NCBI GenBank assembly: GCA_005223185.1
Contig: NJBN01000001.1
Location: 567,365 to 631,364, forward strand
Direction of reading: 5' to 3'
DNA from: a candidate division LCP-89 bacterium B3_LCP
GTDB lineage: Bacteria; Electryoneota; B3-LCP
DNA length: 64,000 bases
Shown: positions 35,592 through 54,710 of the stretch, one piece after another
Numbering within the stretch: the first letter of the stretch is position 1
How the letters are laid out: each line of letters begins with the position of its first letter
Translations under genes and position numbers: made by a program
Notes under the pieces: model-generated
Told to the model about the DNA's origin: nothing
Database searches by the model: none
What the model saw: only the letters and a program-made list of their open reading frames with translations

Positions 35592-35623
35592 ATAAAAAAA
35601 ACCTCCGGCACGTGCGGAGGTTT
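35592..35623 (-). terminator. Intrinsic terminator of the broken beta-helix gene
   Basis: On the - strand AAACCTCCG (35623-35615), a loop and CGGAGGTTT (35607-35599) are followed by further T residues, 20 bases after the stop at 35642. Confidence 0.8.
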
Positions 35624-35641
35624 CGTATCCTGTAATTGGTA

Positions 35642-37045
35642 CTATTTCACCAACACCAACTTCTGCGTCTGTTGTAAATTACCCACCTGTAGTCTGGCAA
35701 AGTAGATACCGGAGGAAAGATTGACAGCGTCGAAAATCAATTCATGGGAACCAGCAACCTGGCAGCCGTCGGCAAGCTGCGCGACCTGTTTGCCATTGAT
35801 GTCATATACAGTCAATAAGATGTGAGCGGCTTTGGGCAGATCGTAGCTTATGGCAGTTGATGGATTGAAAGGATTAGGATAACACGAGTACATGAAGAAA
35901 CCTGAAGGATTTCCAGCTTCATTTCCGTTTTCAACACCGGTGGTTTGATCGAACGGATAGGCGCCCATATCTGCTATAGTACCATCCGGGTCATAAGCAC
36001 TTAGCGGGTCTCCGGTATCTATGCAGGGCGAACCCCATTGCAGGCTATAATCATCTGTAAACATGGGGTCGTCAGTTATGTTGCCGGTTCCGGTCATCCC
36101 GCCTTCGATGCAACTGTAGTTGAAGAAGACGTCCCCATGACAATTGGGATTCACAGTGGCGATATTTCCGTATACGATGTTGTTGCTACCATCAATTGAA
36201 CTACCACCCGCATAGGCATGAACGCCAGCGCCCGAAGCTGCTGGCGTAATATCGGTACATTGGTTCTTACTGATGGTATTATTGACGAGCGCAAAAGGTG
36301 TGTATAGAGTTAGAACTCCAGCTCCGCGATACACGGCTTTATTTTCGGCGATCAGATTGTAGGTAGTGAGGACGTCACAACTTTCGAGGCGGATCCCGCC
36401 TCCTCCACAGCTCCCTCACGTACCTGTGGAAGTGTTCCACATAATCACGCTATTGCGTATCTCTCCTCTGCTGGTGGTGCTGTAATAAAGACCCCCCCCG
36501 CTGCTGGCAGTATTATGGAGAATGCTGCACTGGTCAAATACCACCTGAGCCCCATTCACACTGTAAAATCCACCTCCATCGCTGGCTTCGCAGTACTGAA
36601 TGGTAGTATGGCTTACGTTGAATGAGACTCCATCTGAGTAGATCCCACCTCCTTGATTATTGAGCCATTCATAATTCATGCAGTTATCGATGAGGCAGTA
36701 TTCTATGATACTCCCAGCGGGAGCTCCGGACATGAACCTCAAGCCGCCCCAGCGATGCCCCTGAGTGGGATTCTGCCGGGTGAAGACGATGGAATCGGTC
36801 TCTGTCCCCTGAGCAATTAGTGTCCCGTAGATCTTCCAGTAGTAATGACCGGAAAACAGGAAGGTCGTACCCGGCGCGATTGTCAGTGTCTCTCCTTGAA
36901 GAATGTCACAGTCTCCTTCGACTAAGAAGACGTCAGGTCCTATCGTTCCTGACAGCGAACCGCTTAGTGGCGTCTGAGCGAAAGCCAATCCTGCGCTAAG
37001 CATGAATGACAGTACTATGGTAATCGCAGTTTTTGCATGTTTCAT
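35642..37045 (-). pseudogene. Beta-helix T9SS cargo gene interrupted by a single in-frame TGA
   Basis: The gene is open in one frame for 468 codons except for a TGA at 36418-36416. Upstream are a signal peptide (about 1-24, ending LAFAQ) and beta-helix coils (CDILQGETLTIAPGTTFLFS, DNCMNYEWLNNQGGGIYSDG). Directly after the TGA the same frame continues GSCGGGGIRLESC and more coils, then CIDTGDPLSAYDPDGT and a T9SS tail (YPNPFNPSTAISYDLP, SGIYFARLQVG). Nothing else is damaged, so it is a recent nonsense mutation (from CGA, GGA or TGG) or a sequence error. The ribosome binding site AAGGA is eight bases before the ATG. It is probably co-transcribed with the cytochrome gene upstream. Confidence 0.8.
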
Positions 37046-37107: not shown

Positions 37108-39180
37108 CTATTTCAGTAGAACAAATTTCGTGGTTTGTTGTGTCTGGTTAGTTGTCAGTCTGGCTACATAAACACCGCTGCTAAGCATATCGCTGTCGAA
37201 AGTTACCTGATGCACTCCTGCGCCTCGCTGGCTGTTGATCAGTTCCGCAACCTTTCTTCCGTAAATGTCATAAATTGCCAGATTTACCATGCTTGCAACA
37301 TGCAACTGGTAACTGAGAACAGTGGTTGCGTTGAAGGGATTGGGGTAAACGTTCAATTCGAACATCTCTATCGCCGCCCCATCCGAAGTAGTCACTACTG
37401 AAGAATTCCCTTCCTTCTCCAGATAAAAGCTCTCCTGATCGTACAATTCAAGCGTGATCTGATCCCGTGCAAATGCCGAACAGGTGTATTCACCAGCTAA
37501 AGTGCCCGTCGGCAGGCTGTATTGTCCATCCAGTTGAATGATGCTGCCTATCTGCAATGTTGTATCTGCCGCGCTTATCAAAGTATCGACCAATCCAGCC
37601 GGATCAACTATTTCCGCCCAATAATTGATACGTAATCCGCCTGTCTGGTTGTTGGCAATCGTGAGGTTAAAATCGAAACTACCCCCTTCTGGCGGGATTA
37701 GAATAGGAGGATTATAGGGAGCAAAATCGATAGAGAGCGATCCCGGCTGTTTCTGAACTGCGAAGACGTCATGATCGTAGAGTTCCTGCCAAACATGTTC
37801 TTGAACATAAGCACGGTACATGTGCGCGCCCTCTTCCGCGGCAGCAGATAGGGCATAGGACGAATCTATGTAGAACGTTTCACCGGGTTGTAGGGTGATA
37901 TCCGTAAACAGGATGTGGTCAGTTACAATACCATTTGGATCAGTTATATCGCTCCAGAAGTCGATTCGTAACTCGTATGATTGGTTGTTTTGCCCATTCA
38001 GGCTGAAATCGAAACTTCCGCCATCAGGGGGTATTATCACCGGCGGATTAGCGGCTGTCAGGTTGATGGAAACCAGCGGTTCGACGTGAAAACCCTGCGC
38101 CATCTCGGCAGCTTCTTCGATGGTTAAAGGGATACCGTTATCAATATGGCAGCCCAGGCAGGCGTAATCCAGAGTAATTTTGGCTATATCACCGGAGGGC
38201 GTATAAGTCAATTGCCAGTAAGTTGTATCGCCGATTTGATAGGTATTTTCGTATCCGTAAATCGGCAGAGGCAATATCCCATAGATGTGAGACCGCACAT
38301 CTGCTTTGTATTGGTTGACCGATCCTGCGGAAATATCCATGTAAGGCATGTGACAGTCGATGCAGTCAACCCCCTCCATCACCTGATCCATGTACATCTT
38401 CTTGCCGGGTTCAGGTGAATGCCCATCACAGGAACTGCAGTCGAAATTGGACGGTATCCCACCCAGATCATAAACAGTGGACCGGTGTGGTTCGTGGCAC
38501 TGTTCGCAGGCGATTTCCGTCATGCCGCCTGTGTACAATTCAACCGCTTCTTGCCTATCTAAGAGAAATCCATCCTGCCAAATCAAGCGGTTCTGGCGAT
38601 CGCGGTAATGGCATTCCCCGCATTCCAGGCCGCCCGGAGTGAGTATTGCGGAATTTACCACGTGGGATGAACAAGGCCCATGACAAGCTTCACATTGAAC
38701 TCCATCTAAATACCACCCTCCCACGATATTAGGGTAATTTGGCATGATACCGTATTCCGTGTAACCCGTGGTGTGACAGGGGGCGCAATCATATTGCATG
38801 GTTTCACCGGGATGGTAGGAACTCCAGTTATCAAACTGCAGGTTCCACTGCGTCATATCCCCCGATTCGCCGGTGATGATAGCGCCGGTTTCATCTAAAA
38901 AGCGCGCTTTCCAGTAGTAATTGCCGATTACGTAGTGCACGTCCGACCATTCTAATGGCAATCCGTTTACTGTGGGAAGAGGAGGAACGGAAGTGAAGGG
39001 CCAGGTGTACGAAGGAGGGGTGTATCCGTTGTTGTGATACAGTTGGTGAGGATGTCCGGAATTCTTGTATTCCACGTATTTATCGCTGTGGCACATGCCT
39101 CCCAAACAGGACAGATCACCAGAATAGTTCTGCGCCAGAACTGAGGCGGGGAGTAGCATAAAGATCAAGAGTAACCGCAT
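37108..39180 (-). CDS. Secreted multihaem c-type cytochrome with two stalk modules and T9SS sorting tail
   Basis: The 690-residue protein has a signal peptide (about 1-16). Six CXXCH haem sites start at Cys132, 163, 187, 225, 273 and 341, with a CX4CH at 25-31 and a CSSCDGH at 248 as possible extra sites. The first 350 residues thus resemble cytochrome c554-like multihaem proteins. Then come two copies of the shared stalk module (about 372-478, VIIPPDGGSFDFSLNGQNN; and 480-587, ILIPPEGGSFDFNLTIANN) and a T9SS tail (about 607-690, YPNPFNATTVLSYQLH, SGVYVARL). The layout suggests export of a haem domain to the cell surface, possibly for extracellular electron transfer. Its promoter is at 39237-39265. 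Confidence 0.87.
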   Translation of the reverse strand: MRLLLIFMLLPASVLAQNYSGDLSCLGGMCHSDKYVEYKNSGHPHQLYHNNGYTPPSYTWPFTSVPPLPTVNGLPLEWSDVHYVIGNYYWKARFLDETGAIITGESGDMTQWNLQFDNWSSYHPGETMQYDCAPCHTTGYTEYGIMPNYPNIVGGWYLDGVQCEACHGPCSSHVVNSAILTPGGLECGECHYRDRQNRLIWQDGFLLDRQEAVELYTGGMTEIACEQCHEPHRSTVYDLGGIPSNFDCSSCDGHSPEPGKKMYMDQVMEGVDCIDCHMPYMDISAGSVNQYKADVRSHIYGILPLPIYGYENTYQIGDTTYWQLTYTPSGDIAKITLDYACLGCHIDNGIPLTIEEAAEMAQGFHVEPLVSINLTAANPPVIIPPDGGSFDFSLNGQNNQSYELRIDFWSDITDPNGIVTDHILFTDITLQPGETFYIDSSYALSAAAEEGAHMYRAYVQEHVWQELYDHDVFAVQKQPGSLSIDFAPYNPPILIPPEGGSFDFNLTIANNQTGGLRINYWAEIVDPAGLVDTLISAADTTLQIGSIIQLDGQYSLPTGTLAGEYTCSAFARDQITLELYDQESFYLEKEGNSSVVTTSDGAAIEMFELNVYPNPFNATTVLSYQLHVASMVNLAIYDIYGRKVAELINSQRGAGVHQVTFDSDMLSSGVYVARLTTNQTQQTTKFVLLK

Positions 39181-39236: not shown

Positions 39237-39265
39237 AATATAACAAATTTCAACGCTTCTTTCAA
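39237..39265 (-). promoter_or_regulatory. Housekeeping-type promoter for the multihaem cytochrome gene
   Basis: On the - strand TTGAAA (39265-39260), a 17-base spacer and TATATT (39242-39237) lie about 57 bases before the start codon. A divergent promoter is at 39388-39416. Confidence 0.7.
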
Positions 39266-42619: not shown

Positions 42620-42805
42620 CTAGGGTTTGCCACCCCAACCATACATCTTCCAAAGTGCATCATGCAGGTGCACCCGGTATAAAAGCCCGGTGGAATCAAC
42701 CTCCAGTAAACCTCTTCTCATCGAACCGAAGAAAGTTTCCTCATCAGCCCAAACAGCATCCACGATTTCGTGGCGATCCTGCGGGCTTAAAATTATAGCT
42801 TGAAG
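42620..42805 (-). pseudogene. C-terminal remnant of an unknown gene upstream of nuoA
   Basis: From 42805 to a TAG at 42620-42622 the - strand encodes [20 protein letters not shown] and then DEETFFGSMRRGLLEVDSTG, ending DALWKMYGWGGKP. The composition and codon use look like real coding sequence, but there is no start codon with a ribosome binding site, and the frame runs through the nuo promoter. I do not recognise the family. It is probably the end of a gene whose 5' part has been lost. Confidence 0.4.
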
Positions 42806-42824
42806 CGAGAAATCCGATTTTTCA

Positions 42825-42853
42825 TTGACTTGATTAGCCGTATTTTGTATATT
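42825..42853 (+). promoter_or_regulatory. Promoter of the nuo operon
   Basis: TTGACT (42825-42830), a 17-base spacer ending TTTTG and TATATT (42848-42853) lie 24 bases before the nuoA ATG, so transcription should start about 16 bases before it. GGAG at 42869-42872 is the ribosome binding site. Confidence 0.75.
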
Positions 42854-42877
42854 AGTGAAATTTATAACGGAGACCTC

Positions 42878-43291
42878 ATGAATTTCGGGCCGATTTTCCT
42901 CTTTTTGATAGCCGCAGGAGGAGTCGTCTTTGTGGCGCTCTTCTTAAATCGTATGCTGGCGCCCAGGAAACCCAATCCAGAGAAGCTTTCCACTTACGAA
43001 TGCGGTGAAGAAGCAGTTGGTTCACCCTGGATTCGCTTCAATACCCGTTTCTACGTCATCGCCCTGATCTTTTTAGTCTTTGACGTGGAAGTGTTGTTCC
43101 TCTTCCCCTGGGCAGTGAATCTTAAATCACTGGGCATGTTCGCCTGGATCGAGATGGCTGTATTTATAATCATCCTTTCCGTCGGTCTGGCTTATGTATG
43201 GGCGAAACGCGATTTAGAATGGATCAAACCCGATTCGGATGAAATACAGGCTGCCTTAAGGCAGAGTTCACAGACAATAACTGATAAATAG
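42878..43291 (+). CDS. nuoA: NADH-quinone oxidoreductase subunit A
   Basis: The 137-residue membrane subunit of complex I has three hydrophobic helices and the conserved loop [22 protein letters not shown], here seen as YECGEEAVG and [20 protein letters not shown]. The ATG at 42878 has GGAG five bases upstream and a promoter just before it; an in-frame extension to 42800 would run through the promoter and is rejected. It links the quinone site to the membrane arm. Confidence 0.95.
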
Positions 43292-43368
43292 GTCTTTAAG
43301 AAAGTGGCTAATAGTGCCACTTTCGCTCCTTTGGAAATCTAATCACCTGATAAACCGATAAAAATAAT

Positions 43369-43857
43369 ATGAGTATTATAGAAGGCCGCTACGGTCCCAA
43401 CGTAATAATCACGTCGGTTGATAAAATCTTCAACTGGGCGCGCCTGAGTTCCATCTGGCCGCTGACTTTTGGGCTGGCTTGCTGCGCCATCGAAATGATG
43501 TGCACCAATGCTTCCCGGTTCGATTTAGATAGACTGGGTATTTTCCCTCGGCCGTCGCCCCGCCAGGCTGATTGTCTGCTGGTTTCAGGTACATTAACTG
43601 CGAAGATGGCAGAACGCGTCCGCCGCCTATACGATCAGATGCCGGAACCGAAATGGGTAATCTCCATGGGTTCCTGTGCCAACACGGGTGGACCTTATTG
43701 GCAGCATGGTTATCACGTTGTCAAAGGTGTGGATCAGGTTTTACCTGTGGATGTGTACATTCCAGGCTGTCCGCCCCGACCAGAGGCACTGCTTGATGGT
43801 TTTCTGCAATTGAAGGAGTTAATTAAAAAAGAAACGTTGGCGAAGAAGCCGGCGTAG
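43369..43857 (+). CDS. nuoB: NADH-quinone oxidoreductase subunit B (N2 cluster)
   Basis: The 162-residue subunit carries the four Cys that bind the terminal [4Fe-4S] cluster N2: the CC pair in [10 protein letters not shown], one in MGSCANTGG and one in [11 protein letters not shown]. It passes electrons to quinone at the junction of the two arms. It starts 77 bases after nuoA with no clear ribosome binding site. A hairpin repeat lies in the following gap. Confidence 0.96.
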
Positions 43858-43868
43858 GAATCTTTCCT

Positions 43869-43911
43869 AGAATTCAGTCAGATTCCGGACAAGCCAGAAT
43901 GACTGAATTCT
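43869..43911. repeat. Long hairpin repeat in the nuoB-nuoC gap
   Basis: AGAATTCAGTCA (43869-43880) pairs perfectly with TGACTGAATTCT (43900-43911), with ATTCCGG/CCAGAAT pairing inside. It starts 11 bases after the nuoB stop and has no T run. The inner part is the ATTCYGGA...AGAATGA core seen at 28567 and 56301. Confidence 0.65.
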
Positions 43912-44009
43912 ATCTTATAACTGGCATGCAGGCAAACTAAACCAAAGACACTGCGAATACCCGGGCAAACATATACACGAAGAATTACAGACCTAAGGTA
44001 AATAAAATT

Positions 44010-44507
44010 ATGACCACCGAAGAGATCGTCAACAAGATCAACGCTGCCGGATTTCAGGTTGAAGTCAACGACGAAGGTCCGGATCCTTTCATTGAAGTTG
44101 ACCGCGAAAACCTGATTGCCACCGCGAAATTCCTGAAGAATGATCCCGATCTGAATTTCGATCTGCTCATGTGCTTGTCAGGTTTAGACTGGCCGGAATA
44201 CTTCCAAGTAGTTTATCATCTGATCTCGACAGAATACAAGCACACCATTACGGTGAAGGTGCGTTGCCTCAAGGATGATCCGATCATTCCCTCCGTTTCG
44301 GATATATGGAGAACGGCTGAATGGCACGAAAGGGAAGCCTATGATCTGGTGGGGATACGCTTTGATGGTAACCGTGATCTCCGGCGCATCCTGCTGCCTG
44401 AAGATTGGGAAGGACACCCCCTGCAAAAAGATTACGTTCCGCCAACATCATGGCACAAAATTCCTCTGACTAACCTGGGCGCGGAATCTACCAATGAAGG
44501 AAACTAA
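44010..44507 (+). CDS. nuoC: NADH-quinone oxidoreductase subunit C
   Basis: This 165-residue hydrophilic subunit of the quinone module has the family motif WRTAEWHEREAYDLVGIRFDG followed by RRILLPEDWEGHPLQKDY. AAGGTA lies about ten bases before the ATG. Its end overlaps nuoD by 14 bases, the only tight junction in this part of the operon. It is a separate protein rather than a fused NuoCD. Confidence 0.95.
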   Translation: MTTEEIVNKINAAGFQVEVNDEGPDPFIEVDRENLIATAKFLKNDPDLNFDLLMCLSGLDWPEYFQVVYHLISTEYKHTITVKVRCLKDDPIIPSVSDIWRTAEWHEREAYDLVGIRFDGNRDLRRILLPEDWEGHPLQKDYVPPTSWHKIPLTNLGAESTNEGN

Positions 44508-45684
44508 AGAACTAAACATCCCGCTGGGACCGGTTCTGGAAAAGTGGGAAACCTTAGTGGAATCTTCCGGTGCAAGCGGCGAACGGATGGTTCTGCAGAT
44601 GGGTCCCCAGCATCCTGCTACTCACGGAGTGCTTCGCCTGGAATTGGAAACGGATGGTGAGATCGTCACCAAGATCGTCCCCTATATCGGCTACCTGCAC
44701 CGTTGCTTCGAGAAGGTCGCTGAAAATATAACCTGGAATCAGGTGGTTCCCTACACCGACCGCATGGATTATTTAGCCAGTATGAACATGAGTTTGGGCT
44801 ATGCTCTGACGGTTGAAAAGCTGATGGGGATAGAGGTCAACGAGCGGGTTCAGGCATTGCGGGTGATCACCTGTGAGATTAATCGAATCGCCAGCCACTG
44901 CGTCTTTTTAGCGACGTACGGTTTGGACATTGGCGCATGGACTCCACTGCTGTACCTCTTCCAGGAACGCGAACACATCATCGATCTATTAGAAGAACTG
45001 AGCGGCAGCCGCTTGCTGTTCAATTACATCCGCCCGGGTGGCTTGGCACATGATGTTCCCGATGGCTGGTTGAAGAAGGTGCGTGAGTTCTGCGATTTCA
45101 TGGATCCTAAAATACCCGAATTGAATGAGCTTCTATCCTACAATAAAATATTCATCGAACGTACTGCTAATGTGGGCGTCATGACGCCGGAAGTGGCGCT
45201 TACATACGGTATAACTGGACCCAACCTGCGCGCTTGCGGCGTTGATTACGATCTGCGCCGAGATATACCCTACAGCGGCTATGAAAAATACGACTTTGAG
45301 CCTCAGTTAGGTAAGGGAGAACAGGGTCAGGCCGGAGATAGCTGGGATCGTTACATCGTCCGCGTTCGGGAAATGCAGGAATCGTTGAAGATCATCCGTC
45401 AGGCTATTGACAGTCTGCCTGATGGCGATATAAGTGAGAAGATCCCCAAGAATTTCAATAAGATGCCTGTTGGCGATGCCTACATGACTACGGAAGCTCC
45501 CCGAGGTGAAGTAGGTTTCTATATTGTATCGGATGGCACTAAAACGCCCTATCGTGTGAAAGCTCGTTCTGGTGCGTATTGTTCGGTATCCGTTATTCCC
45601 GCTATCGGCACCGGATTACTGATAGCTGACGTAGTAGCCATTGTCGCCAGTGTCGATATCGTCCTGGGTGAGGTTGACCGATGA
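44494..45684 (+). CDS. nuoD: NADH-quinone oxidoreductase subunit D
   Basis: The 396-residue, 49-kDa-type subunit has [20 protein letters not shown] near the N-terminus (the quinone-site HXXXH region), [12 protein letters not shown], and a C-terminal end [11 protein letters not shown]. With nuoB it forms the quinone-reducing site. The ATG overlaps nuoC, and the stop overlaps nuoH (ATGA). Confidence 0.97.
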
Positions 45685-46691
45685 ACGTACTTGAACCCTA
45701 CATGGATCTAATCTTGTCAGTCGTCTATTTAGTCGGCGTGTTAATGTTTCTAACCATATTTGCTCTGTTGGCGGTATGGCTTGAACGCAAAGTGTCCGCG
45801 CACCTGCAGGATAGGCTTGGTCCCATGATGACCGGCGGCTGGCACGGCTGGTCACAGACAATCGCCGATGCGCTTAAACTGATCCTCAAAGAAGATATCA
45901 TCCCCGCGGTCGCTGACCGCAAGCTGTTTCGATTGGCGCCTTATTTAGTTTTCATCGGTAGTTTAGCGGGTTTTGCCGTATTGCCGTTTGCTCATAATCT
46001 AATCGGCAGCGATATAAACATCGGTGTGTATTACGTCATCGCCATCACCTCTTTAGTGGTGATCGGAATCCTGATGGCGGGCTGGGCTTCGAACAACAAA
46101 TGGGCGTTGTACGGCGCCATGCGTGCGGCGGCGCAGATGGTTTCTTATGAAATACCGGTGGCGCTTTCGCTTTTGATCCCGGTGCTCATGGCAGGGACGA
46201 TGTCCATGCAGACTATAGTGCAGAATCAGGCGGGCGGATTCTGGAACTGGTACGTATTTCAGTCAATTCCGTTCAGCTTAGTGGCTTTCGTGATTTACTT
46301 CTGGGCGTCTTTAGCGGAAGTCAACCGCACGCCCTTCGACATACCGGAAGCTGAATCGGAATTAGTCGCCGGTTTCCACGTGGAATATTCAGGGATGCGG
46401 TTCGCGGTGTTTTTCCTGGCGGAATATGGAAATATGTTCGTGGTTTCCGCCATAGCCGCTACGGTTTTTCTGGGTGGTTGGCACGCACCGTTCACGTTCC
46501 TGGATTTCATTCCGGGACCGATCTGGTTCATCGGCAAATCTATGGGACTGGTGTTGGTGCAATTATGGCTGCGCTGGACGCTGCCCCGCCTGCGCGTCGA
46601 TCAATTGATGCACGTCTGCTGGAAGATATTCCTGCCTTTCTCCTTCGCCAACCTGCTGTTGGTGGGGTTGTGGGTGGTGTTGAAGGGGTAG
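45681..46691 (+). CDS. nuoH: NADH-quinone oxidoreductase subunit H
   Basis: The 336-residue membrane subunit next to the quinone chamber has about eight helices. Conserved segments are [40 protein letters not shown], and [20 protein letters not shown] with its acidic residues. It overlaps nuoD by four bases. A 213-base gap with hairpins follows before nuoI. Confidence 0.97.
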
Positions 46692-46904
46692 TGTGATTCT
46701 GCTCTCAGACGCACCCGACTAAAGTTCGGGTGCTCAATAATAGATTCAAGTCGTTGAAACGACTGAGAATTCGTTAGGTACTGATTGCCAGTACGATAAT
46801 CTTCACTTTGAAAATCACAAAACGTCTGATAAAAAAGAAATACGCAGGCATAGAACCCGAACATTCTGAATCCTGACTACTGACTCCTGAATCCTAAAGA
46901 AAAA
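46692..46904. repeat. Hairpin-rich gap between nuoH and nuoI
   Basis: Two hairpins are clear: GCACCCGA (46711-46718) with TTCGGGTGC (46725-46733), and AGTCGTT-GA-AACGACT (46749-46764). The last 40 bases hold a microrepeat of TGACTCCTGAATCC type just before the nuoI start. There is no terminator T run. Confidence 0.55.
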
Positions 46905-47651
46905 ATGAACCCACTATACCGATACTTCAGGGATATCTACTTAGGGGTGGTAACCACCTGCATTGGCATGAAGGTAACTCTCACGCATATTTTCATGCCG
47001 ACCATAACCGTGCAGTACCCCAAGGAGAAATTGACCTATCCTCCGCGCGCTCGCACCATGTTGGTTACCGACATGGAAACCTGCAACGGCTGTTTGCAGT
47101 GTTCGCGAGCCTGTCCGGTGGAAATTATCCACATCGAAACAGTCAAGGCTCTACCGGAAGACAATTTAGGTAATGCGCCTGATGGCAAACCACGCCGTCT
47201 GCACGTCCTGCTTTTTGACGTTGAAATGGATAAATGTGTGCATTGTGGTTTATGTACGGAAGTCTGTCCCACAGAATCTATCCACTGGGAAAATCAGCAC
47301 GAAGAGGTTTCCTTTACCAGGGATGGCATGATGCGTCATTGGGCTGAATATTCGGTCGAGGACAGGGAGCGTCTGAAGAAAAGGGCTGAAGAGATCAAGG
47401 CTGAAAAAGCCAAAGCTGCCGCTGCGGCTCAGGCGGCGAAAGAAGCCAAAGCCAAGAAAGAAGGGGATGCCCCCCCCAAGAAAGCCGATAAAGAAGGTGA
47501 GCCGCAAATAAAATCTACACCAACAGAAAAACCTGCCGCAAAAGCTGATACCGCAGATGAGAAGGGTTTCGAACCAGGCACACCGGAAGCAAAGCCAGAT
47601 AAGGCGCCACCTGCCGACGATTCACCGAAAAATGACGAGGAAAGCAAATGA
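46905..47651 (+). CDS. nuoI: NADH-quinone oxidoreductase subunit I with long charged C-terminal extension
   Basis: The first 150 residues are a normal NuoI with two [4Fe-4S] motifs, CNGCLQCSRACP and CVHCGLCTEVCP, each followed by its partner Cys/Pro pattern. Residues 150-248 are an extra tail rich in Ala, Lys, Glu and Pro (KAEKAKAAAAAQAAKEAKAK and similar), starting as a likely coiled coil and ending disordered. NuoI is usually about 160-190 residues. The stop overlaps nuoJ (ATGA). The ribosome binding site is weak. Confidence 0.93.
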   Translation: MNPLYRYFRDIYLGVVTTCIGMKVTLTHIFMPTITVQYPKEKLTYPPRARTMLVTDMETCNGCLQCSRACPVEIIHIETVKALPEDNLGNAPDGKPRRLHVLLFDVEMDKCVHCGLCTEVCPTESIHWENQHEEVSFTRDGMMRHWAEYSVEDRERLKKRAEEIKAEKAKAAAAAQAAKEAKAKKEGDAPPKKADKEGEPQIKSTPTEKPAAKADTADEKGFEPGTPEAKPDKAPPADDSPKNDEESK

Positions 47652-48160
47652 TAGATATATTAATTCAAGCCATCTTCTGGCTCTTCGTTGTCCTGACTGT
47701 GGGATCAGCTATAGTGGTCGTTTTCAGCAAACGGATCATATATTCCGCTTTTGCGCTGCTTTTTACCTTAATCGGGGTTGCCGGATTGTACGTATTTTTA
47801 GCTGCCGATTTCTTAGCTGCCAGCCAGATGCTCATATATGTCGGCGGCATATTGACCCTGATTATTTTCGGTGTGTTTCTCACCGCTAAAATATACGGCA
47901 TGACCATTCCGGATCAAGCGCATCAGCGTTATTTAGCTCTGCTGCCAGTTGCCGGTTTCGCAGCGGTGCTCATCCACGTTTTATTTTCAGCAGATTGGAA
48001 TTTGCTGCAATCTACAGCAGAACCGACTACGGAAAATCTGGGTAAGCTCCTGCTCACAACGTACCTGGTGCCGTTTGAAGTAGCCAGCGTACTACTGTTA
48101 GCAGCGCTAATCGGAGCGATGCGAATTTCCCGTCCGAGGGAGGAAGATGATGATAGATAA
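47648..48160 (+). CDS. nuoJ: NADH-quinone oxidoreductase subunit J
   Basis: The 170-residue membrane subunit has five hydrophobic helices; the characteristic third-helix region reads SQMLIYVGGILTLIIFGVFL. It overlaps nuoI by four bases and nuoK by 14 bases, so nuoI-J-K form one coupled unit. Confidence 0.95.
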   Translation: MIDILIQAIFWLFVVLTVGSAIVVVFSKRIIYSAFALLFTLIGVAGLYVFLAADFLAASQMLIYVGGILTLIIFGVFLTAKIYGMTIPDQAHQRYLALLPVAGFAAVLIHVLFSADWNLLQSTAEPTTENLGKLLLTTYLVPFEVASVLLLAALIGAMRISRPREEDDDR

Positions 48161-48458
48161 TTTTCAAGTATATCTAGCTGTGGGTGTGATCCTGTTCTGC
48201 TTAGGTCTGCTTTGTGTGATGACCCGCAAGAGTGCCATCTCAGTTTTAATGGGAGTAGAACTGATCCTGAATTCTGCTGCTCTGAATTTCGTGGTGTTCA
48301 GTAAATATACCGCAGGTAATCTACTGGGGCAGGGAGCAGCGATATTCATCATAATACTTGCTGCCGCGGAAGCAGCAGTTGCTCTGGCAATTTTCCTGAA
48401 TCTATATCGAACTATTTCTACGGCCGAGGTTAACCGGGCAGATCAACTGCGAGGATGA
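48147..48458 (+). CDS. nuoK: NADH-quinone oxidoreductase subunit K
   Basis: The 103-residue subunit has three helices and two conserved membrane Glu: one in LMGVELILNSAALN and one in AAAEAAVALAIFLNLYR. Both are part of the proton path. The gene overlaps nuoJ. The next gene in the operon is not nuoL but a Cys-rich exported protein. Confidence 0.96.
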   Translation: MMIDNFQVYLAVGVILFCLGLLCVMTRKSAISVLMGVELILNSAALNFVVFSKYTAGNLLGQGAAIFIIILAAAEAAVALAIFLNLYRTISTAEVNRADQLRG

Positions 48459-48540
48459 TCGCATTGACTGCTTGAAAGTGCGTTGATATAGGAAACAACT
48501 AAGAATACTGCATAATCGTCAAACGGCAAGGAGGAATCAA

Positions 48541-49044
48541 ATGGAGAATTCTAAAGACACTCTGGACCGAAGACGCTTTCTGAAAACGACTGGCGCTGTT
48601 TGCATTGCCTCATGTTTGCCGTTAGCCTTAGGATGCAGCGGTAAAAAAGAAACAGGAGAAACTGCCAAGTCTTCATTAGACAAGGAACCTGAAACTGAGG
48701 TGAAAATGATCGCTATGTGCGGGCTGGTTTGCACCGAATGTGAAGCATACATTGCTACTAAAAACAACGACCAAGCTGCCAAGGAAGAAGTCGCCAAGAA
48801 GTGGTCGGAAATGTATGGTGCTGAGGTAACCGTCAAGGAAGTTACCTGCGATGGATGCCAATCTACAACGGGACGACTGTCCAGTTATGCTTCCAGCATG
48901 TGTGAGGTCCGTACCTGCGCTTTAGAGAAACAGGTTACTAACTGTGCGCACTGTCAGGAATATGCCTGTGAAAAGCTGACTGAATTCTACAAGATAGCAC
49001 CGGAGGCGAAAAAAGTTCTGGATGAAATCCATGCGAAAACATAA
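48541..49044 (+). CDS. Tat-exported Cys-rich DUF3795 protein inside the nuo operon
   Basis: The 167-residue protein begins with a twin-arginine signal (LDRRRFLKTTGAVCIASCLP) that ends near LALGCSG, where the Cys could be a lipid-attachment residue although the lipobox is imperfect. The mature part is a DUF3795 domain with paired Cys: MCGLVCTECEAYI, CDGCQ, CEVRTC and CAHCQEYACEKL. It could bind a metal or cluster; no function is established. AGGAGG precedes the ATG. It lies between nuoK and nuoL on the same strand. Tat export implies that a folded, cofactor-bearing protein sits on the periplasmic side. Confidence 0.8.
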   Translation: MENSKDTLDRRRFLKTTGAVCIASCLPLALGCSGKKETGETAKSSLDKEPETEVKMIAMCGLVCTECEAYIATKNNDQAAKEEVAKKWSEMYGAEVTVKEVTCDGCQSTTGRLSSYASSMCEVRTCALEKQVTNCAHCQEYACEKLTEFYKIAPEAKKVLDEIHAKT

Positions 49045-49068
49045 TAATTCCCGCGTAAAATGATGGTA

Positions 49069-49092
49069 GCGCGGGGGTTTGCCCCCCCGCCT
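49069..49092. repeat. GC-rich hairpin repeat in the gap before nuoL
   Basis: GCGCGGGGGTTTGCCCCCCCGC resembles the hairpins at 24893-24918 (inside the giant beta-helix gene) and 28699-28716 (a terminator). Here no T run follows. Confidence 0.5.
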
Positions 49093-49180
49093 AATAAGGA
49101 CATGCTTCGTCTCGCCTGCGGCGATCCGGAAGCATGCCACCCATTGAATGCAAGCCTGATGTAATAAGAAAATAAATATA

Positions 49181-51385
49181 ATGATAACCGAAGCGATAAT
49201 TATCCTGCTGGCTCCGATCATAGCCTTTACAATAGTGATCTTCATAGGTAAAAGGCTGCCCCGCGGCGGGGATTGGGTGAGCCTTGCCGCCATATTCTTA
49301 GGACTCATCTTAGCATTACATCTTCTGTCACGCATGCTGGGAGAGTGGGACCCTGATTTCGCCATAAGCTGGCAGTTCCACTGGTTCATGTTCGGCGATT
49401 ACGACCTGACCATCGGGATCAATTTGGACAACATGGCGATCATGATGCTGGTCGTGGTGACCATCGTCAGTTCGCTGGTGCACCTCTTCAGCGTGGGTTA
49501 CATGCATGGCGATGTACGCTATTCGCGCTTCTTCGCTTATCTCTCCTTCTTCAGCTTCAGCATGCTTGGTTTGGTGCTGGCGGATAACATCTTCATCATC
49601 TTCTGTTTCTGGGAATTAGTCGGTCTGTCCAGTTATCTTTTAATCGGGCACTGGTACGAAAAGAAAAGCGCCTCGGATGCCGCGGTCAAAGCCTTCGTGG
49701 TCAACCGCATCGGCGATGCGGGCATGATCGTAGGGATCATGCTAGTATTCACCCACTTAGGCACACTGAACTTAAATGACATCATCGCTGCTGTGGGGCG
49801 CGGAGAAATGACTGGCACGTTACTCACTGTTACGGGAATCTGTCTCTTCTGTGGCGCTATCGGCAAATCAGCGCAATTCCCATTGCACGTCTGGCTGCCC
49901 GATGCCATGGAAGGTCCCACTCCGGTTTCCGCCTTGATTCACGCCGCCACGATGGTCGCCGCTGGTGTTTATCTGACCGCACGGATTTTCCCCATACTTT
50001 CACTTGATGCTGGTCTGGTGATAGCCTACGTGGGTGGATTCACCGCGTTGTTCGCCGCCACCATAGCGGTCGCTCAGAACGACATCAAGCGGGTTTTAGC
50101 TTATTCCACTTTAAGTCAATTGGGTTATATGGTCATGGCTTTAGGTGCCGGAGCGTACACTGCAGGTTTCTTCCACCTGTGTACGCACGCCATGTTTAAA
50201 GCCGCTCTCTTCCTGGGATCAGGCAGCGTCATTCACGCCATGCACGGCGCTCTGCATCATATCCATTCCGACGCCGATCCGCAGGACATGCGCAATATGG
50301 GTGGGTTGAAGAAATATATGCCCAAAACCTACTGGTCTTTTCTGCTGGCGACGCTGGCTCTTTGCGGTGTGCCTCTGACTGCTGGATTCCTCTCCAAGGA
50401 TGCCATTTTAGGCGGGACTTTAGCTTATGCTCAGCTTAACCCGGGCAATTGGCTACTACCCGTCTTCGGTTTCGGAGCGGCTATCCTGACCGCATTTTAC
50501 ATGTTCCGCTTAATATATTTGACTTTTTTCGGTAAATTCCGACCCGGAGAAGAAGCGGAAAAACATCTGCATGAAGCCCCAGCAAACATGACTATACCGG
50601 TCGCCGTCATGGCGGGCTTGAGTATCTTTATCTTCTGGTCGCTACCGACCGTGAATCCGACGTCAGCGGAAAAGGGCTGGTTTGCGCATCTGTTCCCGAC
50701 GCCGGGAAAGGTGTATGAACATATTATACCCAACCGTCAGATGCGGGTTGATACAACACGGGATGATTATCTTACATTAATGGTAGAACCTGAAACTTCA
50801 GGATCAACCGAACATCATGATGAAGCTGAAAAGCATGAAACTCACGGACATGCTGTACCCGACCACGATGCTGAAGGTCATGCGGTTGCAGGAGCAGATC
50901 ACCATGATGATCATGTAGCTCACGTTCACCATCAGGCGCATACCACTGCTATGATTATATCCATCATCATGGCTGGGTTGGGTATTCTGCTGGCGTATCG
51001 CACCTACTATCAGTGGAAGATTTCCGCCGCCGCCTGGCAGAAACGGCTGGGGATCATCTACCAGGGCATGTTCAACAAATGGTGGGTGGATGAGATCTAC
51101 GACGTAGTTTTCGTTAAGGGATTGCACCTGTGCACTAAGATACTGGCTGCTTTTGATCTCTACGTCATAGATGGGATCGTCAATGCAACTGCGGCGTTGT
51201 GGCGTGCGCTTGCTTTCATACACGGCATATTTGACCATTACGTCATAGACGGTTTAGCGAACGGTATAGCCTGGTTCGTGGGGCTTTGGGGACGTTTCGC
51301 TCGCATGTTCCAGACCGGTTCAGTGCAGAGATATATGCTGATCACCGCTGTGGTGGTGGCGCTGTTTTTGTTGCTGAGGTTGTAA
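49181..51385 (+). CDS. nuoL: NADH-quinone oxidoreductase subunit L with a His-rich loop
   Basis: The 734-residue antiporter-like subunit shows the Mrp/NuoL core: FCFWELVGLSSYLLIGHWYE, LHVWLPDAMEGPTPVSALIH and TLSQLGYMVMALGAGAYTAG. The C-terminal lateral helix and last membrane helix are present. Between the core and the final part, residues about 540-592 form an inserted loop with about 14 His and many Asp/Glu (AEKHETHGHAVPDHDAEGHA, then further HH pairs), which is not part of standard NuoL. It pumps protons in the distal membrane arm. There is no clear ribosome binding site. Confidence 0.95.
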   Translation: MITEAIIILLAPIIAFTIVIFIGKRLPRGGDWVSLAAIFLGLILALHLLSRMLGEWDPDFAISWQFHWFMFGDYDLTIGINLDNMAIMMLVVVTIVSSLVHLFSVGYMHGDVRYSRFFAYLSFFSFSMLGLVLADNIFIIFCFWELVGLSSYLLIGHWYEKKSASDAAVKAFVVNRIGDAGMIVGIMLVFTHLGTLNLNDIIAAVGRGEMTGTLLTVTGICLFCGAIGKSAQFPLHVWLPDAMEGPTPVSALIHAATMVAAGVYLTARIFPILSLDAGLVIAYVGGFTALFAATIAVAQNDIKRVLAYSTLSQLGYMVMALGAGAYTAGFFHLCTHAMFKAALFLGSGSVIHAMHGALHHIHSDADPQDMRNMGGLKKYMPKTYWSFLLATLALCGVPLTAGFLSKDAILGGTLAYAQLNPGNWLLPVFGFGAAILTAFYMFRLIYLTFFGKFRPGEEAEKHLHEAPANMTIPVAVMAGLSIFIFWSLPTVNPTSAEKGWFAHLFPTPGKVYEHIIPNRQMRVDTTRDDYLTLMVEPETSGSTEHHDEAEKHETHGHAVPDHDAEGHAVAGADHHDDHVAHVHHQAHTTAMIISIIMAGLGILLAYRTYYQWKISAAAWQKRLGIIYQGMFNKWWVDEIYDVVFVKGLHLCTKILAAFDLYVIDGIVNATAALWRALAFIHGIFDHYVIDGLANGIAWFVGLWGRFARMFQTGSVQRYMLITAVVVALFLLLRL

Positions 51386-51677
51386 GATTCAGTGGGGGGG
51401 AGGATAGACATTCCTGTCTGTCGAAGAGGATGTCTGAATCGCAGATTTTCACAGATTATCGGATTTCGCTGATAAAATTATCTGAACCGCAGATTCCCAC
51501 GGATAACACTGATGACGCGGATAGTATCCGTGCAGTCCGTGACATCCGCGAGTATCCGTGGTTCCGACAAAACAGCGTCAGGTTAGCGCTGCGCTGAGGA
51601 CCCCGAAGGCAAGCCTGAAGCAACGGGAAGAACCGGGACATCAAGCTGTCCCGGGCACCCGCTATATAGGAGGTTTC
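51386..51677. repeat. Repeat-filled gap after nuoL
   Basis: This gap holds GGGGGAGGATAGACATTCCTGTCTGTC (51393-51422, a hairpin, given here to 27 bases only as positions: core AGGATAGACATTCCTGTCTG), a run of degenerate TCTGAATCGCAGATT-type units (51433-51570), and a GCGTCAGGT...CCTGAAGCAAC element (51575-51624). Each has sister copies at 54711-56544. AGGAGG at 51668-51673 serves the next gene. Confidence 0.6.
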
Positions 51678-52307
51678 TTGGGGATAAAATATTGTCCAAA
51701 ATGTCATGATGGTGTTATTAACACAGATAATGGTATATGTATTCAGTGTGGCTTTGAACCTAGGAAAACTTCCCACATCCAAGAATATGTTGATAAAATA
51801 ATTGCATTCTCATTCGATTGCGCAAATGTTATTTGTCGGATGGAAGATAATGATATATCATCTGAGGGGAAAAAGACTCGAGATGAAAAGTGGTTTAAGG
51901 TATTACTTGAAATTATTTATTTTTATATTCATCTTACAGATAGATTTGCTTTTGGTCTGTGGGATGAAGAGACCAGAGATTCAGTAATGACGGATATTGT
52001 AGAAGGTACTATTCCCATAGTAGCTGAACAGATTTGTCAAGAATGGCCAGAAGAGATGGTTGATAAAATCAAACAGGAGTGTATGGACAACTTTGTTAAT
52101 GCGATGAAAGAATATGGGAGTTATCAAAAATTGTCAGCAAAAAAGGATGAGGATCTTAAGGATACACTTTTTTGGGAATTCGGTAAGAACGTGGCTAACT
52201 TGACTGAAGAGTGGCCAAATCCAGCTAGCATCATTCGGATCGAAGGTATAGTAACAATCTCCCTTAAAGAATTGGATATAAACTCTTTTATAGAGAAAGC
52301 AAGATAG
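51678..52307 (+). CDS. Zinc-ribbon protein of unknown function between nuoL and nuoM
   Basis: The protein is 209 residues from a TTG at 51678, with AGGAGG four bases upstream. A longer open frame reaches 51558 but its extra part is the repeat region, so it is rejected. The N-terminus is a CXXC...CXXC zinc ribbon (YCPKCHDGVINTDNGICIQC). The rest is mostly helical and acidic (QICQEWPEEMVDKIKQECMD). I do not recognise the family. It is AT-rich compared with the nuo genes and followed by another AT-rich orphan, so the pair looks inserted into the operon. Confidence 0.65.
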   Translation: MGIKYCPKCHDGVINTDNGICIQCGFEPRKTSHIQEYVDKIIAFSFDCANVICRMEDNDISSEGKKTRDEKWFKVLLEIIYFYIHLTDRFAFGLWDEETRDSVMTDIVEGTIPIVAEQICQEWPEEMVDKIKQECMDNFVNAMKEYGSYQKLSAKKDEDLKDTLFWEFGKNVANLTEEWPNPASIIRIEGIVTISLKELDINSFIEKAR

Positions 52308-52406
52308 TCATCGCAGAAAAAGCTGCCAGGTACGAAGACCCGGGTGCAATGTAGGATTCCCACAGCAGAGCTATAGGGCACCCGGCAACGGGAATTGGTG
52401 AGTGAT

Positions 52407-53057
52407 ATGACCAAACCATTAATTAGAGAGCGGATTGTCATTTCTTGGTTCCTCAGCGGTCTGGAAGACTTTTTCTACGCCTTTAAAATTCATTCCCCTT
52501 GGCGCTATGAGCCTTTCCTTTGCTCCATCGGCTTTGAAAAAATTAGCAAAGCATATATTCTTGCACTGAACGCTGCTAAATATGAAAACCTAAAATGGCA
52601 TGATGCAAAGGAAATGGTTAACTGCTTAGCAAAAAAAAGGGGACACCATTTAAAAAAAATGGTTAAAGAGATAAAAAATCACGTTAATGATCCAGACCCC
52701 GAAAGCATATTGAACAATTCCAGTGCTAAGCTTAAGGATAATCACAAAACAACATTAGAAGCTATGGAGGCTGCTTATCTTGAATGCAGATATCCTGTTC
52801 CCAGTTATTTTCATGAGAAGTTCCCTGTAGCGTCCATTTTGGTTAATGGTCATCCTGTTGTATATGATGATCCGATAGGCTCAACCAACTTTGTTAATTT
52901 CTGTGCTTCTTTCGCTGGTAAAATTTCAAAATATTTGAAGAAGAATTTTGATATTTCGATCTCCAGAAAAAGGTTTGATAGCGTTGTCAATGGCAATGCC
53001 AGCGATGGGTTTTGTAATCGGTATCTGCAATATTTTACTTTGAACGATAGCACTTAG
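52407..53057 (+). CDS. Orphan protein between nuoL and nuoM, possibly HEPN-like
   Basis: The protein is 216 residues from the ATG at 52407 (GTG 52398 is an alternative; GGTGA lies just upstream). The helix IGFEKISKAYILALNAAKYE resembles the EK..KA..L helix of HEPN domains, and KKRGHHLKKMVKEI resembles the later GHDLxxL helix. This is suggestive only, because the usual Rx4-6H motif is not clearly present. No signal or membrane segment is seen. It follows the zinc-ribbon gene by 99 bases and is AT-rich. Products unrelated to respiration are likely; a two-gene defence or toxin-antitoxin unit is one speculative reading. Confidence 0.55.
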   Translation: MTKPLIRERIVISWFLSGLEDFFYAFKIHSPWRYEPFLCSIGFEKISKAYILALNAAKYENLKWHDAKEMVNCLAKKRGHHLKKMVKEIKNHVNDPDPESILNNSSAKLKDNHKTTLEAMEAAYLECRYPVPSYFHEKFPVASILVNGHPVVYDDPIGSTNFVNFCASFAGKISKYLKKNFDISISRKRFDSVVNGNASDGFCNRYLQYFTLNDST

Positions 53058-53144
53058 AGTTAATTGGCCAATGGGTGTCGTCCCCGACCCCGACATGTAA
53101 ACAGACAAAACACTAACCCAAATATACAGGAGAACCCCACACCC

Positions 53145-54710
53145 ATGGGACCCTTAACACTGATAACTTTCTTACCCGCTGTGGGAGCCGCCGTCATCGG
53201 GCTGCTGCCGGCAAAGAACCACAATCTGATAAGATACACCGCTCTGGTGACGACTCTGATCGTGCTGATAATCGCCGGCGCGCTGTATCCGCAATTCAGC
53301 CGCACTGGTTTCGGCATCAACGAAGAAGCCAGCTTCCAGTTCGTCGAACACGCCAACTGGATACCGGCATTCAACATCGAATACTTCGTCGGAGTGGACG
53401 GACTATCCTTCCCCATGGTGCTGCTGACCGCGCTGCTGAGTTTTCTCTGCATCCCGGCGTCGTTCGGCATTAAAAAGGGAGTTAAAGGTTACTTTGCCAT
53501 GTTCCTGCTGCTGGAAACCGGCATGATGGGAACCTTCGTGGCTTTGGACTTCTTCCTCTTTTATGTCTTCTGGGAGATAATGCTCCTGCCCATGTATTTC
53601 CTGATCGGAATCTGGGGCGGTCCGCGCAGAGTGTATGCTGCTATCAAATTCTTCATCTACACTCTGGTCGGTTCGGTGCTGATGCTTCTGGTCATGCTGG
53701 CTTTTTACTTCAATGTGCAGGATCCGGTGACCGGAGCCAACACCTTCAACATGCTGCACATGATGGGCCAGGATAATCATTCTACCTGGTTGAACGTTTT
53801 CAATATCCGAGCGCTGCTCTGGTTCGGTCTCTTTATCGGTTTTGCCATCAAGGTGCCGGTTTTCCCATTCCATACCTGGCTGCCTGATGCTCACGTGGAA
53901 GCGCCCACCGCCGTTTCCGTCATTCTGGCTGGCATCCTGCTGAAGATGGGAACCTACGGCATGCTGCGCATCATGTATCCGATTCTGCCTGACGCCACCA
54001 TGTCATTCCTCTGGTTCATCGCGCTCATGGGGGTGATAAACATCATCTATGGAGCCTTCTGCGCCATGGCGCAGAAAGACCTGAAGAAACTGGTGGCGTA
54101 CAGTTCCATCAGCCACATGGGTTACGTGATGCTGGGTATGGCTGCCATGACCTCCGCAGGCATCAACGGAGCGGTCTTCCAGATGTTCAATCACGGCTGC
54201 GTCACGGCTATGCTATTCCTCTTAGTGGGCGTCATCTACGAACGCGCTCACCACCGCGAAATCGCCCGCTTCGGTAATCTGTCCAACATAATGCCCAAGT
54301 ATTTAGGCATCAGTGCGGTCGCCTTCTTCGGAGCTTTGGGTCTGCCGGGACTTTCCGCCTTCATATCCGAAGCGATGGTATTCTTAGGTTCATTCCCAGT
54401 TTGGCCGGTACATACCATTCTAGCAGTATCGGGAATTATCGTCACCGCAGCTTACGTTTTGTGGACGCTGCAACGCATGTTCTTCGGTGAGGTCAAGGAT
54501 CCTGCATTGCAGAACCTATCTATCGAAGAACTGAAGAAGAAATTTCCGGAAATTAACGGCCGCGAACTGTTTACTCTGATCCCGCTGGCGATCATCATCA
54601 TCTTCTTAGGTATCTGGCCCCATCCGGTCCTGAACCTGATGAACGCCTCATTAGTGCATCTGATCGATATTGTCAAGGTTGCACCGGGAAGTATGGCGGG
54701 GTTGTTTTGA
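53145..54710 (+). CDS. nuoM: NADH-quinone oxidoreductase subunit M
   Basis: The 521-residue antiporter-like subunit has FFLFYVFWEIMLLPMYFLIG, FPFHTWLPDAHVEAPTAVSV and the Lys/His-bearing SSISHMGYVMLGMAAMTSAG. The ATG at 53145 matches the usual NuoM start (MGPLTLITFLPAVGAAVIGL) with AGGAGA upstream; an extension to 53064 is a Pro/Arg-rich readthrough and is rejected. It is the last nuo gene in the window. The expected nuoN does not follow. Confidence 0.96.
   Translation: MGPLTLITFLPAVGAAVIGLLPAKNHNLIRYTALVTTLIVLIIAGALYPQFSRTGFGINEEASFQFVEHANWIPAFNIEYFVGVDGLSFPMVLLTALLSFLCIPASFGIKKGVKGYFAMFLLLETGMMGTFVALDFFLFYVFWEIMLLPMYFLIGIWGGPRRVYAAIKFFIYTLVGSVLMLLVMLAFYFNVQDPVTGANTFNMLHMMGQDNHSTWLNVFNIRALLWFGLFIGFAIKVPVFPFHTWLPDAHVEAPTAVSVILAGILLKMGTYGMLRIMYPILPDATMSFLWFIALMGVINIIYGAFCAMAQKDLKKLVAYSSISHMGYVMLGMAAMTSAGINGAVFQMFNHGCVTAMLFLLVGVIYERAHHREIARFGNLSNIMPKYLGISAVAFFGALGLPGLSAFISEAMVFLGSFPVWPVHTILAVSGIIVTAAYVLWTLQRMFFGEVKDPALQNLSIEELKKKFPEINGRELFTLIPLAIIIIFLGIWPHPVLNLMNASLVHLIDIVKVAPGSMAGLF

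Follow-up and report, generated by a model that had tools for sequence, protein, structure and literature searches.

A T9SS-tailed octahaem-family cytochrome with predicted surface targeting and its likely operon partner, a beta-helix selenoprotein, in candidate division LCP-89

OcwA of Thermincola potens is a nonahaem terminal reductase (PDB 6i5b) whose location at the cell surface has been established by experiment (PMC6703420). Other surface multihaem proteins, the outer-membrane decahaem cytochromes of the MtrC/OmcA type, go together with the porin MtrB, while cargo of the type A T9SS is recognized by its C-terminal sorting tail (TIGR04183), an N-terminal signal peptide and the presence of SprA and PorU in the genome. 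Multihaem proteins also figure among catalogued selenoproteins, as ExtKL (NF040886), octahaem tetrathionate reductase (TIGR04315) and UshA-like proteins (NF041198), and the same source lists NF041046, a UGSC-containing selenoprotein (PMC13188914). Here we compare with these systems a locus from candidate division LCP-89 bacterium B3_LCP (GCA_005223185.1). The window, that is the whole stretch of DNA analysed, comprises 64,000 nt (NJBN01000001.1:567,365-631,364, forward strand), and the comparison set within the phylum consisted of 39 genomes, in which the window's genome is coded G000 and its relatives G0xx; the genomes compared were mostly metagenome-assembled. The features of the locus are collected in Table 1.

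Table 1. Features of the cytochrome and beta-helix selenoprotein locus, in window positions
Feature	Position	Strand	Basis or remark
T9SS-tailed octahaem-family cytochrome, 690 aa, ATG start	37108..39180	(-)	ORF reading, Pfam/NCBIfam matches
Haem site 1, CLGGMCH (CX4CH, aa 25-31)	39088..39108	(-)	two-residue insertion, common to G012 (CVGGMCH)
Haem site 3 and loop, CEACHGPCSSH (aa 163-173), extra Cys170	38662..38694	(-)	alignment; TGA in loop in G014 and G011
Haem site 6, CSSCDGH (CXXCXXH, aa 248-254)	38419..38439	(-)	His displaced; common to G012
Haem domain, aa 18-365, OcwA-like fold	38086..39129	(-)	AF2; Foldseek 6i5b, E 3.4e-8
Two Ig-like stalk modules, about aa 370-600	37381..38073	(-)	PF22021 sub-threshold; module recurs in the genome's other T9SS cargo
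T9SS type A sorting tail, aa 611-687	37120..37350	(-)	TIGR04183, 47.1 bits, cut-off 23
Promoter-like site upstream of cytochrome, TTGAAA-17-TATATT, extended -10	39237..39265	(-)	consensus match only
T9SS-tailed beta-helix selenoprotein, 467 aa, TGA read as Sec210	35642..37045	(-)	read-through frame, relatives, AF2
In-frame TGA (Sec210), UGSC motif	36416..36418	(-)	same codon in G012 and about 30 relatives
SECIS hairpin, 7-bp stem GAGGCGG/CCGCCUC, loop GAU, 20 nt after UGA	36386..36402	(-)	fold and covariation
Intrinsic-terminator-like hairpin just after read-through stop	35598..35624	(-)	consensus match only

The larger of the two genes encodes a multihaem c-type cytochrome, as indicated by six CXXCH motifs (CAPCH 132, CEACH 163, CGECH 187, CEQCH 225, CIDCH 273 and CLGCH 341) together with three haem families above their Pfam cut-offs (PF13435, 31.7/20.8 bits; PF14537, 30.1/25; PF14522, 25.3/24.8). 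An initial annotation of this DNA had counted six CXXCH motifs, one CX4CH and one CXXCXXH in the first 350 residues; all were recovered within the first 345, the eight sites spanning aa 25-345. In an AlphaFold2 (AF2) model built on an alignment of 44 relatives, the haem domain was mostly predicted at pLDDT 87-97. OcwA is the best solved fold match to this domain, accompanied by a weak sequence match around c554-like haem motifs, and the match is a remote one (15% identity, TM-score 0.43 by target length; Foldseek). Unlike OcwA, the window cytochrome has eight haem-motif sites rather than nine, lacks the C-terminal three-helix bundle and continues after the haem domain into an Ig stalk and a T9SS tail, with T9SS as its predicted export route. 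It may work like OcwA, and it is not classed as a member since nine haems and the three-helix bundle were not found.

Not all eight sites seem equally sound. Sites 1 and 6 depart from CXXCH only in the window and in its nearest genus, represented by G012, whereas the other aligned full-length members have eight canonical sites. CX4CH, the form taken by site 1, is known to bind haem in other cytochromes, and at site 6 the histidine is displaced where other aligned members have CXXCH; we therefore consider seven haems likely for the predicted protein, and an eighth uncertain. Haem binding by site 6 appears doubtful from its motif and from the model, in which pLDDT drops below 50 at residues 255-261, directly after the site.

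The loop that follows haem site 3 varies among relatives. Both the window cytochrome and that of G012 have an extra cysteine there, Cys170. In the octahaem gene of G014 (L121:7206-8590), site 3 is instead closely followed by an in-frame TGA (CEGCHGPDS-U-DKPDTR), and downstream of this lies a hairpin with a GAU loop (-11.9 kcal/mol); an octahaem fragment of G011 (L019) has the same TGA (GPDS-U-xKPDTR), its contig ending just beyond. At this position relatives retain a conserved His, and the window reads CHGPCSSH. Such a loop would suit a catalytic reductase of a soluble small molecule (nitrite, hydroxylamine, tetrathionate or selenite) whose active haem would lie close to the Cys170/Sec loop and which would have no role in electron transfer with minerals or electrodes, and enzymes of this kind occur among the c554/NrfA/OcwA lineage (PMC6703420). 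Yet soluble substrates do not require surface export, and models for NrfA, HAO and tetrathionate reductase gave no match above cut-off, so that we regard this reading as distinctly unlikely. Octahaem tetrathionate reductase (TIGR04315) was also tried as an identity for the cytochrome and rejected, with no match at E<=1 in NCBIfam. The likeness to catalogued multihaem selenoproteins lies in the pairing of selenocysteine (Sec) with a multihaem module, seen as TGA in the G014 and G011 cytochromes; by contrast, the window cytochrome has PCSS rather than Sec, and T9SS tails are not described in the catalogue's table (PMC13188914).

Both ends of the protein point to export. The N-terminus, MRLLLIFMLLPASVLAQ, was called as a signal peptide by direct reading, and AF2 predicts a helix at residues 2-14. 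The clear T9SS tail reported initially was borne out by TIGR04183 and is also found by Por_Secre_tail (40.3 vs cut-off 27; Pfam); it is modelled at pLDDT of about 83-94. The two stalk modules reported with it correspond to the two Ig-like modules, the second of which has a sub-threshold match to RbmA FnIII (24.8 vs cut-off 27; Pfam), and the stalk is modelled at pLDDT <50. A check for T9SS core and cytochrome c maturation genes, as had been proposed, found SprA (819 bits summed over parts), PorU (744 bits) and a cytochrome c assembly protein (PF01578, 122 bits) in the window's genome, along with >150 matches to tails and tail-linked or stalk modules. With its C-terminal tail above cut-off, its signal peptide, and SprA and PorU in the genome, the cytochrome resembles T9SS type A cargo, and differs in having a multihaem passenger, as its operon partner does in having a selenocysteine passenger.

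As a surface multihaem protein the cytochrome would also resemble MtrC and OmcA, but its match to PF22113 is sub-threshold (17.7/30), on which ground assignment to the MtrC family was rejected, and it has no lipobox and carries a T9SS tail. No outer-membrane electron route was identified: MtrB/PioB, sought with the PF11854 profile, was found in 0/9 genomes of the phylum, in agreement with the initial annotation, which saw no classical electron conduit among the neighbouring genes (nitroreductase, other T9SS cargo). Given this, the tails on relatives, SprA, PorU, the many tail and stalk matches and the cytochrome c assembly protein, placement of the cytochrome at the surface is the best reading, and its predicted surface targeting is well supported. 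Neither of the observations named at the outset as contrary to the annotation was made, that is, a genome without any T9SS core genes or a structure model with CXXCH motifs that do not bind haem. Of the multihaem wire placed at the surface by the initial annotation, the surface targeting stands, on the tail, SprA, PorU and the OcwA fold match, while the term 'wire' is not supported.

Could the haem domain, despite the tail, fail to be exported and instead stay folded in the periplasm or be degraded? In the open-access papers searched we found no report of multihaem cargo being tested for T9SS export, which leaves room for this; however, T9SS exports large folded proteins, and tails are kept on haem-domain relatives across T9SS-bearing phyla, and we judge a failure of export very improbable. 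Nor did we find an open-access paper on T9SS multihaem cytochromes or T9SS selenoproteins, an absence that is weak evidence as subscription papers lay mostly outside the search.

Within the phylum, 16 of the 39 genomes have a match to the haem domain, eight of these nearly full length. Scanning one genome apiece for 84,980 species gave at least 80 loci (at least 243 confirmed stretches), among Chloroflexota, Planctomycetota, Gemmatimonadota, Bacteroidota, Calditrichota, Krumholzibacteriota, Methanoperedens, Pseudomonadota and others, and in most of the family the CXXCH count is exactly eight. The haem layout is shared by homologues in other genera, most of them from the window's phylum and with the same tail, so the architecture of the cytochrome is not due to chance. 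The search of related genomes for CXXCH proteins with a T9SS tail, as first suggested, returned both octahaem relatives and other multihaem types; since the latter (L026, L194:2009-3490 and L198:1547-3397, with 8-9 CXXCH) carry the tail at their end, the combination of tail and multihaem protein is not confined to the octahaem family. Two Bacteroidota loci, L082:7929-10640 and L087:4248-8108, have 16 and 24 CXXCH, respectively, in octahaem modules that are repeated along the chain, with a T9SS tail after them.

Members of the haem-domain family with T9SS tails belong to the window's phylum, Krumholzibacteriota, Calditrichota and Bacteroidota, and the remaining members are without the tail; those of Methanoperedens finish with a hydrophobic segment and then basic residues. 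A tree of 71 members requires four changes in tail state, of which well-supported branches force at least two, and tails occur in at least two separate clades. The idea of many separate tail gains was set aside, as only two of the four changes are forced by well-supported branches and gain and loss are indistinguishable.

The mention of other T9SS cargo among the neighbouring genes was correct as far as it went, and incomplete in that the cargo immediately downstream is one gene split by an in-frame TGA. It appears as two ORFs (36416-37045 and 35642-36334) that form one frame with a single TGA between them, in the context STGT-U-GSCGGGG (STGT-U-GTCGGGG in G012). With the read-through protein as query against the 39 genomes, the best 25 matches (query included) each have exactly one TGA and zero TAA or TAG. 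The TGA falls at the same codon in about 30 genes from at least seven genera, nearly all with a UxxC motif, and beyond it the frame remains long and conserved and ends in a T9SS tail. AF2 predicts a continuous beta-helix across the TGA, in which Sec210 and Cys213 would sit in a loop between rungs.

The hairpin downstream of the UGA is consistent with the published bacterial SECIS model, and the folded stretch reaches -15.5 kcal/mol. Standard pairs fill 98.6% of pair cells in the 30 sequences compared, and double-sided changes number eight vs 1.5 in shuffles (0/500); single-sequence folding z-scores are modest (-0.4 to -2.9). Beneath the hairpin, Gly-Ile-Arg is encoded as GGG-ATC-CGC in 30/30 scored Sec sites and by varied codons in seven other such sites. 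When 386 genomes were scanned for the Sec DNA signature, 31 sites were found in nine of them and none with a reversed-pattern control. The positive genomes comprise every one of the six in the window's family and two more from the same phylum; the ninth, G139, belongs to another phylum, and its two beta-helix genes with the TGA/SECIS signature (L231 and L232) showed no T9SS tail within the frame read.

A cysteine homologue at the Sec210 position, which would back a selenoprotein without being required for one, was sought and none was found; beta-helix paralogues without the TGA are also without the loop, which is why no such homologue is known. Taken alone, this lack would favour an ordinary stop or a decayed gene, with no selenoprotein at all. 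That explanation is nevertheless scarcely credible in the face of the recurrence of the same TGA in so many genes and genera with no other stop in the best 25 matches, the covarying hairpin, the conserved frame running on to a T9SS tail and the Sec machinery of the genome. Decay of the beta-helix gene by a stop codon was rejected because the only stop in the best 25 matches is TGA and a SECIS element follows it, and general reassignment of TGA because, in the window, only this TGA splits a long frame (>=120 aa before, >=100 after).

That machinery is present in duplicate. G000 has two copies of selA (C7:557388-558758 and C6:6896-8254), one of them about 8.6 kb left of the window, two of selB (C16:189863-191713 and C18:232578-234473) and two of tRNA-Sec with anticodon UCA (C18:55476-55568 and C13:102551-102642). 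The beta-helix partner thus qualifies as a predicted selenoprotein in that its UGA is kept across species and SelA, SelB and tRNA-Sec are encoded in the genome. Taken together, the sequence evidence strongly supports the predicted composition of both genes and the recoding of UGA. Both selA and tRNA-Sec are also doubled in G011, G012 and G014, and selB is doubled in most of the family. Elsewhere in the phylum (G025-G028, G030, G031 and G033-G036) numerous UshA-like genes contain a single in-frame TGA and probably encode selenoproteins, which suggests that the phylum has a large selenoproteome. The beta-helix family itself is absent from NCBIfam and from the 119-family 2026 catalogue (PMC13188914). 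It has the same UGSC motif as NF041046, an identity that was rejected for want of an NCBIfam match.

The cytochrome and Sec beta-helix genes adjoin on the same strand, with a gap of 62 bp in the window and 38 bp in G012, where Sec beta-helix genes lie on both sides of the cytochrome. G014 has the order octahaem gene, T9SS-tailed kelch-like gene, Sec beta-helix gene. Another multihaem gene of a different type, likewise with a T9SS tail, is divergently oriented to a Sec beta-helix gene in G010 and G011. In all, a T9SS-tailed multihaem gene stands beside or near a Sec beta-helix gene in five of the six genomes of the window's family. The cytochrome and beta-helix genes of the window likely form an operon. 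A respiratory complex I (nuo) cluster (window 42800-54710) lies directly right of the T9SS cargo genes, and the other multihaem genes of the genome are clustered elsewhere, on contig C15, with cytochrome b.

As the other product of the likely operon is a T9SS-tailed selenoprotein, the likely job of the cytochrome shifts from bare conduction to membership of a redox pair. We propose that the operon makes a surface redox module, in which an OcwA-like cytochrome and a selenol/thiol beta-helix partner would act together on an extracellular substrate, and we give this proposal about an even chance of being right. The cytochrome would be loaded with haems in the periplasm, cross the outer membrane via T9SS and be attached to the surface by PorU, while the beta-helix protein, rigid and with an exposed Sec-x-x-Cys loop, would take the same export route. 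Once there, the cytochrome and the selenol/thiol pair could exchange electrons and jointly serve as a terminal oxidoreductase for a metal, a metalloid, a sulfur species or a disulfide.

A simpler account is that the cytochrome is a surface wire alone, co-transcribed by chance with an unrelated surface protein. The OcwA-like fold and the lack of an MtrB barrel in the nine genomes are compatible with it; T9SS beta-helix genes are numerous in the genome, and the majority of Sec beta-helix genes lie away from cytochromes. It does not, however, explain why multihaem and Sec beta-helix genes are linked in most genomes of the family through two different multihaem types, and we see it as possible rather than probable. 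For about 25 of the 31 Sec beta-helix genes the stretch read contains no cytochrome, and it therefore seems that the selenoprotein also acts without one.

If the proposed redox module is real, T9SS-bearing lineages could equip their cell surface with multihaem reductases and need no Mtr-type barrel to do so. Gene callers will split every member of the beta-helix selenoprotein family into two false genes; if our reading holds, a multigene outer-surface selenoprotein family would be added, on a beta-helix scaffold unlisted for selenocysteine in the catalogue (PMC13188914). More tentatively, and on the unlikely side of our expectations, the lineage may display an expanded set of T9SS-anchored beta-helix selenoproteins with multihaem partners, which the second SelA/SelB/tRNA-Sec set may serve, and so carry out extracellular electron transfer between selenol and haem.
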